Part shown: positions 57,679 through 59,490 of the stretch, one piece after another
How positions within the stretch are numbered: position 1 is the stretch's first letter
How the letters are laid out: each line of letters starts with the position of its first letter
Assembly (NCBI GenBank): GCA_004565275.1
Contig: SDOX01000005.1
Coordinates: 1,152,765-1,216,764 of the forward strand
Length of the DNA: 64,000 nucleotides
Source of the DNA: Nannochloropsis salina CCMP1776
Lineage: Eukaryota; Sar; Eustigmatophyceae; Eustigmatales; Monodopsidaceae
Direction: 5' to 3'
Notes under the pieces: generated by a model
The model's input: only the letters and a program-made list of their open reading frames with translations
What the model was told of the DNA's origin: nothing
Databases searched by the model: none
Translations under genes and position numbers: made by a program

Positions 57679-59490
57679 CTACTGTGCTCCTCCTGTGTCC
57701 CTATCCCCCGTTGGTGTATACAAATAGTAAGGAGACGCAGCACTTACACCGCGTCGGATCCATTGTGTTGTAATGCGTTTGTTGCCTTCCACTAGCGGAC
57801 AGCCACTGTGCTTGGTGTACCCAACGTCCATGTAATCATCGGGACCTCGATAGTGAAAAAAAGCAGCCTGACCAGCCTTTCCCTTGAGCACGATATCAGC
57901 GTTGGTAAAGCTAGTCTGTCCCCCTCGTACGCCTTCCTCGCAGTAAAGCACCATTGTGGCTGCCCGTCCCCCTCTAACAAACTTGCTGGAATCACAGTAT
58001 CCATCACAATGCATGCGATACTCATCACCAGAGGCGTCGTACACTATCGCGTTCAAAGACTCCTGACCTGCCAAATCAAAACTCTCGTAACCCCCACAAC
58101 CGTGCTCATTTGCAAAGGCGAAAACACGACGTTGCAATGTTGCCAGGATATCTGTCGGGTCCTTCAAGTCCGGAGCGATACTCGCCGACTTGGCCTTGCG
58201 TACAGACGAGATAATTCTTTGCCCCGGGAGATCGCCTGAGACCGAGGCATGAAGCAAGCGACCACTGCTCCGGTTTTTCAAAGCCGCACATTCTGAAGGA
58301 CTGATGATGTCGTGCAAAAGGTAAATGCGTGCGTTCCCCCACTCGCTGTCGAAATAGTGGTCGACGCGGACGGTTTTATTGTTCGGAGTGGCCCCGGAAA
58401 CCGGGGAAGGTGAATCAGTCGCCCCAAATTTGTCTTCCGGATACGTCCAATACGTCACTTTCATATCCTCAGGTCCCATAGTTTCGTGATGTAGGCAGGC
58501 ATAGTCTCGATAAGGCTCTTGCAGCTCGTCTCGCTCTGTCATGCTTTTTTGAATACTTCGCTGAATTCGAGCAAGTTTGCCACGGTAAAGGGCGTCCACG
58601 ATACATGATGCTTCGCCTCCACACTGTTTTAGGGCTTCCTTCACCTGCTGTCCGGTGACACTTTTATGGTAAGTTGCCGGGGGATTGACAAGGGGAGGAG
58701 GTTGCTCTCTCGGGAAGGCCGCAACCGTCTTCCTCGAGGCTGACTCTTCATGCTTCTTGACAATAACGTCTGCCGTTATATCGTTTGATGAAACTACATC
58801 AAAGGCTCTGGAATCACGATGCACTATGATATTGGGCGCCTTGCTGTGATCCAAGTGATTATCAGGAACTTGGGAGATTAACAAGCGATGGCCGACGAAT
58901 GAGTTCAGCTTGAAGCTCTGCCCCTGAGACATGGTATTCAGTAAGACAAAACTATCCCTCTCCGGATGCAACCAGTAAATATATACAACTCCACCCGCTT
59001 GATTACTGATCTGTAGTTGGACATTCGCTTCGAGGGGCTGGGCGGTGACATCAGAGGATGTGGAGGCACCTGTGGACTCGTTGTGTTGCTTTCCTCTCCC
59101 ATCCTTTGGCGCATCGATTTCGCCGCCCAAATCTAAATCTTCGAAAATGAGCTCTTCTTGGGATGAGTCCGACGCACGGACACGATGCCTTTTCATTTGC
59201 TGCAGGAAGTTAGGAGGATCCAACGGGCCAACCACATGCCCCTTTCCAGTCAGCAAAAAGCCGTGACCTTGAAACGTTTGAATAACTCCACTTGTTCCCT
59301 TCAAAATTGTGGAAATTCGGGTGTACGTGCCGCCGCTATTCTCGTCTCGCCAGTACACGTCCAAATCGACAGAGGCTTGATTCAGCAGCTCCATCTCAGC
59401 AGCTTCCGCGGCGACCAGGTTAACGATTGAGCCAATCGAAAGAACCGCTCCTGCAATACCAGCGGCCAGTGAGGCCAGGGTGAGCCTCAT
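57679..59490 (-). CDS. Prolyl 4-hydroxylase with two N-terminal VHL-beta-like repeats
   Basis: Single exon, 603 residues. An N-terminal signal peptide or anchor (LASLAAGIAGAVLSIGSIVNLV) suggests the secretory pathway. Two related beta repeats follow. Repeat 1, residues ~34-82: VDLDVYWRDE, TFQGHGFLL. Repeat 2, ~156-207: VYIYWLHPE, LNSFVGHRLLI. Both resemble the VHL beta domain, with Trp47/Trp173 and His76/His201 at the positions of human VHL Trp88 and His115, and Thr72/Ser197 at Ser111. A Cys-containing helical region (QQVKEALKQCGGEASCIVDAL) comes next. The C-terminal P4Hc domain (~385-585) has the iron ligands His494 and Asp496 (YRMHCDGYCD) and His561, with Lys571 as 2OG anchor (GNKRITTQWI). 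It should hydroxylate proline in secreted or ER proteins; the VHL-like part could bind hydroxyproline. Confidence 0.9.
   Translation of the reverse strand: MRLTLASLAAGIAGAVLSIGSIVNLVAAEAAEMELLNQASVDLDVYWRDENSGGTYTRISTILKGTSGVIQTFQGHGFLLTGKGHVVGPLDPPNFLQQMKRHRVRASDSSQEELIFEDLDLGGEIDAPKDGRGKQHNESTGASTSSDVTAQPLEANVQLQISNQAGGVVYIYWLHPERDSFVLLNTMSQGQSFKLNSFVGHRLLISQVPDNHLDHSKAPNIIVHRDSRAFDVVSSNDITADVIVKKHEESASRKTVAAFPREQPPPLVNPPATYHKSVTGQQVKEALKQCGGEASCIVDALYRGKLARIQRSIQKSMTERDELQEPYRDYACLHHETMGPEDMKVTYWTYPEDKFGATDSPSPVSGATPNNKTVRVDHYFDSEWGNARIYLLHDIISPSECAALKNRSSGRLLHASVSGDLPGQRIISSVRKAKSASIAPDLKDPTDILATLQRRVFAFANEHGCGGYESFDLAGQESLNAIVYDASGDEYRMHCDGYCDSSKFVRGGRAATMVLYCEEGVRGGQTSFTNADIVLKGKAGQAAFFHYRGPDDYMDVGYTKHSGCPLVEGNKRITTQWIRRGVSAASPYYLYTPTGDRDTGGAQ

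Follow-up and report, generated by a model that had tools for sequence, protein, structure and literature searches.

Locus and domain organization

The window analysed here, a 64,000-nucleotide stretch of contig SDOX01000005.1 from the alga Nannochloropsis salina CCMP1776, carries on its minus strand an open reading frame (ORF) in which a prolyl 4-hydroxylase (P4H) domain is preceded by two repeats resembling the beta domain of VHL. This domain content had been proposed by a model from the DNA letters alone (hereafter the original prediction). Homology of both repeats, though divergent, to the VHL beta domain is well supported by sequence profiles, profile-profile comparison and predicted fold. 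As first claimed, the frame runs uninterrupted from an ATG over 603 codons, and it probably represents an algal gene. In a search of its own genome (26.5 Mb, 103 contigs), the ORF is the sole match at E ≤ 0.001 among the matches listed. Its hydrophobic N-terminal segment is followed by the two repeats, and a Pro-rich linker separates these from a P4H domain of the collagen/plant type. Residue numbers are counted from the ORF translation.

57679..59490, minus strand: whole ORF, 603 amino acids plus stop, ATG start, uninterrupted frame
59407..59490, minus strand: hydrophobic N-terminus, residues 1-28, likely signal peptide or anchor (Kyte-Doolittle)
59116..59409, minus strand: VHL-beta-like repeat 1, residues 28-125 (profile, AlphaFold2, Foldseek)
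58735..59049, minus strand: VHL-beta-like repeat 2, residues 148-252 (profile, AlphaFold2, Foldseek)
58666..58710, minus strand: Pro-rich linker, residues 261-275, REQPPPLVNPPATYH (from sequence)
57745..58341, minus strand: P4H (2-oxoglutarate (2OG)-Fe(II) oxygenase) domain, residues 384-582 (PF13640, PDB matches, motif)

Relatedness of the two repeats to the VHL beta domain

Repeats 1 and 2 match each other in pairwise blastp at E ~3e-4, the space searched being just a few sequences. The family search suggested along with the original prediction failed: the Pfam VHL model PF01847 gave no match at E ≤ 10 to the whole protein or to either repeat, a null result on which the HMMER filters bear, as they discard most weak matches. 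By the curated model (threshold 21 bits), the protein is therefore not a member of the family. Human VHL, used as a control, scored 151 bits (E 9.5e-45). Pfam and NCBIfam scans of the repeats also returned no VHL match.

A different result was obtained with a wider VHL profile containing no algal sequence. Its rows are bacterial VHL domains, found by running the Pfam VHL model on genomes from two phyla, together with human VHL and the plasmid-borne sequence L019. The bacterial sample comprises 35 VHL loci. The two phyla are those of Noviherbaspirillum and of a Planctomycetaceae metagenome-assembled genome (MAG), the latter phylum accounting for 30 ORFs. L019 is a weak row, originating from a tblastn match of human VHL to the plasmid at E 0.7. 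Three bad rows were later dropped, leaving 34 rows, 33 of them non-human. Against this profile, the whole protein scores 35.0 bits (E 1.4e-9) among 2102 real stop-to-stop fragments of at least 60 amino acids, drawn from the window and from non-VHL loci. The two repeats are found as separate domains, with 14.9 bits for repeat 1 and 17.5 bits for repeat 2. Overlapping copies of the same genes aside, the next sequences are ORFs at three other loci of the same genome, and the top unrelated fragment reaches 8.0 bits.

L004:1441-2232, plus strand: ORF in which a P4H domain is followed by a VHL-like domain (17.7 bits, E 3.4e-4)
L014:1033-2460, plus strand: 476-residue ORF in which a VHL-like domain precedes an oxygenase-like C-terminal part (12.1 bits, E 0.018)
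L006:565-2349, plus strand: ORF in which a P4H domain is followed by a VHL-like domain (12.0 bits, E 0.02)

With the first version of the VHL profile, repeat 2 alone scored 20.7 bits and repeat 1 alone 18.2 bits, while the best of 2000 shuffled domains reached 9.4 bits.

One domain from each of these three ORFs was combined with the two repeats, giving five algal domains. L004 and L006 had been picked through an oxygenase search, their VHL-like part being first spotted by eye. A blind genome search with repeat 1 brought in L014 (E 0.108). In a profile-profile comparison with hhalign, the five domains align to the VHL profile at 97.6% with a score of 68.6 (68.0 when human VHL is removed), and the two window repeats alone at 95.7%. 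In the column-shuffle control, 299 of 300 comparisons scored at most 20.3, and one gave 132.7 over 14 columns at the end of the profile. An earlier series of 100 shuffles, started from the same seed, contains the same outlier, which we read as a numerical end artefact. The hhalign score is therefore not relied on by itself.

The five algal domains were also used, without any other sequence, as a profile against 177,635 distinct PDB sequences. VHL occupies the first 24 of the 25 matches, with E values from 0.033 to 0.6; all 24 are human or mouse VHL constructs, so that effectively one protein ranks first with weak E values. Conversely, 27 bacterial VHL domains were made into a profile with no human sequence, which retrieved VHL from the PDB at E 2.8e-16 to 2e-15; no other protein was matched below 0.9. 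A profile restricted to the two window repeats, which we set aside, gave nothing but weak T-cell-receptor and antibody matches in the PDB.

Predicted fold of the repeats

AlphaFold2 models of the repeats were made from alignments devoid of VHL sequences, and have mean predicted local distance difference test scores of 72.8 (repeat 1) and 66.3 (repeat 2). Both models are predicted to adopt a VHL-type beta-sandwich. In Foldseek, pVHL comes first for either model, in agreement with the structural likeness anticipated by the original prediction: 50 of the 50 matches listed for repeat 2 are pVHL entries, and 48 of 50 for repeat 1. These entries are many crystals of one protein and count as a single match. 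A fold search of BFVD gave no match at E ≤ 0.001.

For the repeat 1 model, VIA-align places the lumenal sandwich of HGSNAT (PDB 8vlu, 8vkj and others) at the top Z-score, where it fits slightly better than VHL; this is a point against VHL relatedness. The repeats could be generic immunoglobulin-like or HGSNAT-like lumenal sandwiches unrelated to VHL, their W...GH pattern having arisen by chance and convergence. The missing Pfam match and the T-cell-receptor and antibody matches of the two-repeat profile go in the same direction. On the other hand, the independent VHL profile gives a 35-bit match supported by shuffled and real-sequence controls, the hhalign comparison reaches 97.6%, the algal profile ranks VHL first in the PDB, and pVHL leads Foldseek for both models. 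HGSNAT is absent from the PDB matches of both the bacterial VHL profile and the algal profile. An origin unrelated to VHL is thus already disfavoured, and we regard it as very improbable. The VHL-beta-like identity first assigned to the two repeats is borne out.

The prolyl 4-hydroxylase domain

PF13640 scores 30.1 bits on the ORF (cut-off 27 bits). In P4Hs, the HxD motif and a distal His bind the metal, and a Lys binds 2OG. When aligned with other P4Hs, H494, D496, H561 and K571 occupy these HxD...H...K positions. By this alignment the catalytic motif is intact, and the P4H assignment follows from PF13640 and the motif. Searched against the PDB, the domain retrieves P4H sequences eight times, with E values from 7e-16 to 1.4e-7; they include a bacterial P4H, human collagen P4H alpha-2 and 2jig, from Chlamydomonas. 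The two remaining matches of the ten obtained at E ≤ 10 are P4H-TM (E 1.2) and one chance match (E 1.1), and no EGLN/PHD enzyme is among the ten. As judged from these matches, the domain stands nearest to P4Hs of the bacterial, collagen-alpha-2 and Chlamydomonas types, rather than to EGLN. The parallel initially drawn with the animal PHD and pVHL pair is in this respect a loose one.

The hydroxyproline pocket is partly retained

As described in a section of PMC9528729, the hydroxyproline site of pVHL is made of Trp88, Tyr98, His110, Ser111, His115 and Trp117, with Ser111 and His115 holding the 4-hydroxyl group and Tyr98 the carbonyl. A passage of PMC6650433 presents Trp88, Tyr98, Ile109, Ser111, His115 and Trp117 as almost invariant among the animals studied. 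In the 33 non-human rows of our VHL profile, W88, S/T111 and H115 are each found 33 times, W117 32 times and Y98 29 times.

In the profile alignment, the positions of W88, Y98, S111, H115 and W117 are occupied by W47, I59, T72, H76 and F78 in repeat 1, and by W173, L184, S197, H201 and L203 in repeat 2. The Trp/Thr/His and Trp/Ser/His matches announced for the two repeats are therefore correct, and this part of the pocket argument stands. The argument had omitted Tyr98 and Trp117, which are conserved in neither repeat. The domain of L014 carries W, L, T, H and L at the same five positions. At positions 98, 111, 115 and 117, L006 has F, T, H and F, and L004 has W, T, H and W; their W88 was taken from MAFFT alignments because the profile alignment left that position unaligned. 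Ser/Thr111 and His115 are thus present in five of the five algal domains. Overall, in these alignments the hydroxyl-binding trio is retained throughout, and the aromatic cage is worn in the window repeats and nearly complete in L004. Among the five, the L004 pocket is the most complete, with Thr, His and an aromatic residue (W and W) at the positions of Y98 and W117.

The preserved hydroxyl contacts would favour a preference for hydroxyproline, and the lost Tyr and Trp would disfavour it. According to a passage of PMC3688787, Trp117 of pVHL also belongs to its aromatic core, and the substitution Y98H, which is oncogenic, affects a residue that binds hydroxyproline. Conservation of the pocket may therefore be partly structural, and the loss of Tyr98 speaks against binding as tight as in pVHL. 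There is appreciable room, although short of an even chance, for VHL-type sandwiches that lost hydroxyproline binding or never had it. Such domains would bind substrates, partners or glycans in a general manner, with Trp and Gly-His kept for folding. However, Ser/Thr111 and His115, the residues that bond the 4-hydroxyl group, are kept in all five domains, and both other pocket positions of L004 are aromatic. Moreover, the PDB matches of the bacterial VHL profile below E 0.9 are all VHL, with HGSNAT absent, which indicates that the sequence signal is that of VHL.

N-terminal segment, linker and VHL box

The 19-residue Kyte-Doolittle window peaks at 2.04 at residue 5 and does not exceed 0.65 beyond residue 40. 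On account of this strong N-terminal hydrophobicity, the segment is likely a signal peptide. The signal peptide originally proposed is supported in this respect; less likely, the segment is an anchor.

The VHL box model PF17211, corresponding to the Elongin C site, gave no match at E ≤ 10 to the whole protein or to either repeat, in line with the original prediction; the human VHL control scored 91.3 bits (E 3.2e-26). This bears on whether the repeats act like the animal PHD-VHL-HIF system, as a substrate receptor tagging hydroxylated clients for ubiquitin-dependent breakdown. The single chain holding a hydroxylase and a VHL-like fold would suit such a role. Nevertheless, no VHL box was found, a hydrophobic segment lies at the N-terminus, and the hydroxylase domain is of the collagen/plant type rather than the EGLN type. 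The first two features make animal-like degradation unlikely, and we hold this role to be extremely improbable.

The linker (residues 261-275), with its PPP and PP motifs, separates the repeats from the catalytic domain and is a possible substrate in cis. The repeats might then bind their own hydroxylated linker, a putative regulation that would tune activity according to the supply of oxygen and 2OG. The position and composition of the linker invite this scenario, which we nevertheless consider quite improbable.

The adjoining genes encode, according to Pfam, a nickel-insertion protein, Pex19 and a GDA1/CD39 nucleoside phosphatase, and are uninformative on function.

VHL-like domains elsewhere in the genome

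Three more oxygenase or oxygenase-like ORFs with a VHL-like domain thus appear, from profile scores, to exist in this genome, L004 being clear and L006 and L014 marginal. L006 matches the VHL-like domain of L004 at E 3.4e-5, and the genome search made with the L014 domain gives repeat 1 as its next match (E 0.075). The C-terminal part of L014 resembles a 2OG oxygenase by eye (HxD...H); it has no oxygenase match in Pfam, and the PDB gives two non-oxygenase matches at E 1.6 and 2. Genome searches with repeat 1, repeat 2 and the domains of L004 and L014 returned one further match each, three of the four lying in oxygenase or oxygenase-like ORFs. The fourth, found with repeat 2 (L012, E 0.076), is a 73-residue frame and was set aside as chance. 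Since the repeats failed to find each other in these searches, further copies may have been missed. A Pfam VHL search of the genome gave one match, at locus L002 (17 bits over 41 residues, below the cut-off), which was also taken as chance because a fragment of that locus scores 7.1 bits with the wider VHL profile.

A PF13640 search of the genome gave 8 places, two of which are L004 and L006. The window gene is missing from them, so the list is incomplete. Three other oxygenase ORFs have features of their own. At L008:811-2493 (plus strand), a P4H-type oxygenase domain shares its ORF with three PHD zinc fingers (Pfam), and such a combination with a module that reads chromatin is unusual. Two others, at L007:1360-1812 and L009:535-1692 (both plus strand), match PF13640/PF13661 and look EGLN/PHD-like by eye, with an HEVLP pattern.

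VHL domains in bacteria and viruses

The Pfam VHL model is positive in 5 of 398 genomes of the Noviherbaspirillum phylum and in 52 of 392 genomes of the phylum of the Planctomycetaceae MAG. Among the 35 bacterial VHL ORFs, two of which are probably in the wrong frame, 21 match a DPP-IV/S9 profile built from regions of three of them; all 21 belong to the 30 from the Planctomycetaceae MAG phylum. None of the 35 matches a P4H profile. Ten of these ORFs were scanned with Pfam: DPPIV_N was found in four, two of which also contain Peptidase_S9. Many bacterial VHL-domain proteins look secreted from their N-termini, as assessed by eye, and a part of PMC9002001 describes one such protein as secretory. 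In the 21 ORFs (among loci L066-L094), the VHL domains that share an ORF with DPP-IV/S9-like regions have a near-invariant hydroxyproline pocket, which raises the idea that they might bind hydroxyproline or proline peptides.

The VHL profile was also run on fragments of 12 viral and 19 bacterial loci whose P4Hs had been retrieved by searching with other algal P4Hs; its best score there was 4.6 bits (E 4.1, L037). In the seven genomes behind seven of the 19 bacterial loci, Pfam VHL gave weak matches in six and none above the cut-off. No close relative of the 603-residue protein was found in viral and genome contig collections searched with exact short peptide patterns; eight phage records match the P4H part alone. 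Within the scope of this genome and the bacterial and viral collections, VHL and P4H were seen together only here. No paper on a VHL-P4H fusion was found among the results listed by searches of the open-licence PMC literature, and an unremarked database annotation may exist.

A putative writer and reader of hydroxyproline

The view that accounts best for the data, to which we give about an even chance, is that the ORF encodes a secretory P4H with two VHL-beta-like peptide-binding modules, most likely holding Pro-rich clients, preferably hydroxylated ones, near the catalytic domain. The protein would reside in the endoplasmic reticulum or Golgi, where the two N-terminal domains would bind Pro-rich client proteins. 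Clients with an already hydroxylated proline may be preferred over those with plain proline. By analogy with the peptide-substrate-binding (PSB) domain of collagen P4H, the bound client could be kept near the C-terminal catalytic domain, and hydroxylation might then proceed in a feed-forward or processive manner.

The fusion of VHL-like and P4H domains, with similar copies in three other ORFs, suggests that writing and reading of hydroxyproline may be coupled within a secreted protein, outside animal oxygen sensing. In addition, VHL-like domains recur next to enzymes directed at proline in lineages far apart, namely hydroxylases in this alga and proteins resembling prolyl peptidases in bacteria, and this recurrence is why the finding goes beyond a single odd fusion. 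A broader proposal, which we advance only tentatively and judge rather unlikely as a whole, is that the protein is a single-chain hydroxyproline writer and reader of the secretory pathway, and that the VHL fold is an old extracytoplasmic reader of peptides containing proline or hydroxyproline, linked in this alga to P4H and other oxygenases and in bacteria to S9 prolyl peptidases, all of them Pro-directed enzymes. Its use with HIF and ubiquitin would then be a late special case. The main known role of VHL is to recognise hydroxylated HIF for a ubiquitin ligase. A hydroxylase with VHL-like domains of its own, together with the similar domains of three more oxygenase-type ORFs and the pocket-complete VHL domains of bacterial prolyl-peptidase-like proteins, would offer a testable account of the role of the VHL fold before HIF. 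It would also supply hydroxyproline binders of non-animal origin for use as tools, and P4Hs would gain a further type of substrate-binding module.

Comparison with known systems

The repeats are predicted to share with pVHL a seven-strand sandwich, repeat 1 corresponding to about VHL 69-156 and repeat 2 to about VHL 68-145, and positions N78, W88, G104, S/T111, G114 and H115 are kept in the algal domains. Identity in the structural alignments is 14-21%, the repeats fall below Pfam detection, and Tyr98 and Trp117 are replaced. Unlike pVHL, the algal protein has no alpha domain or VHL box that we could find, carries its VHL-like domains in tandem with a hydroxylase attached, and is probably lumenal.

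The bacterial VHL-beta proteins have in common with the algal protein the VHL beta domain and, often, a secreted appearance. They differ by their partner, which is DPP-IV/S9-like rather than a P4H, and by their nearly complete pocket. An algal VHL beta domain joined to an oxidoreductase-type protein is described in a part of PMC7539508, namely the SELENOM-pVHL fusion of the alga Aureococcus anophagefferens, for which a function tied to tumour suppression is suggested; there, the partner is selenoprotein M instead of a hydroxylase.

Residues 384-582 resemble the collagen, plant and bacterial P4Hs of PDB 5iax, 7zsc and 2jig, with the same HxD...H...K motif. Collagen P4H possesses a separate peptide-substrate-binding domain (PSB/TPR), in place of which the algal protein carries its two VHL-like domains. 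Similarly, plant type 2 P4H bears a Tox1/ShKT tail, as stated in a passage of PMC11275109, whereas the algal P4H is instead equipped with two VHL-like domains.
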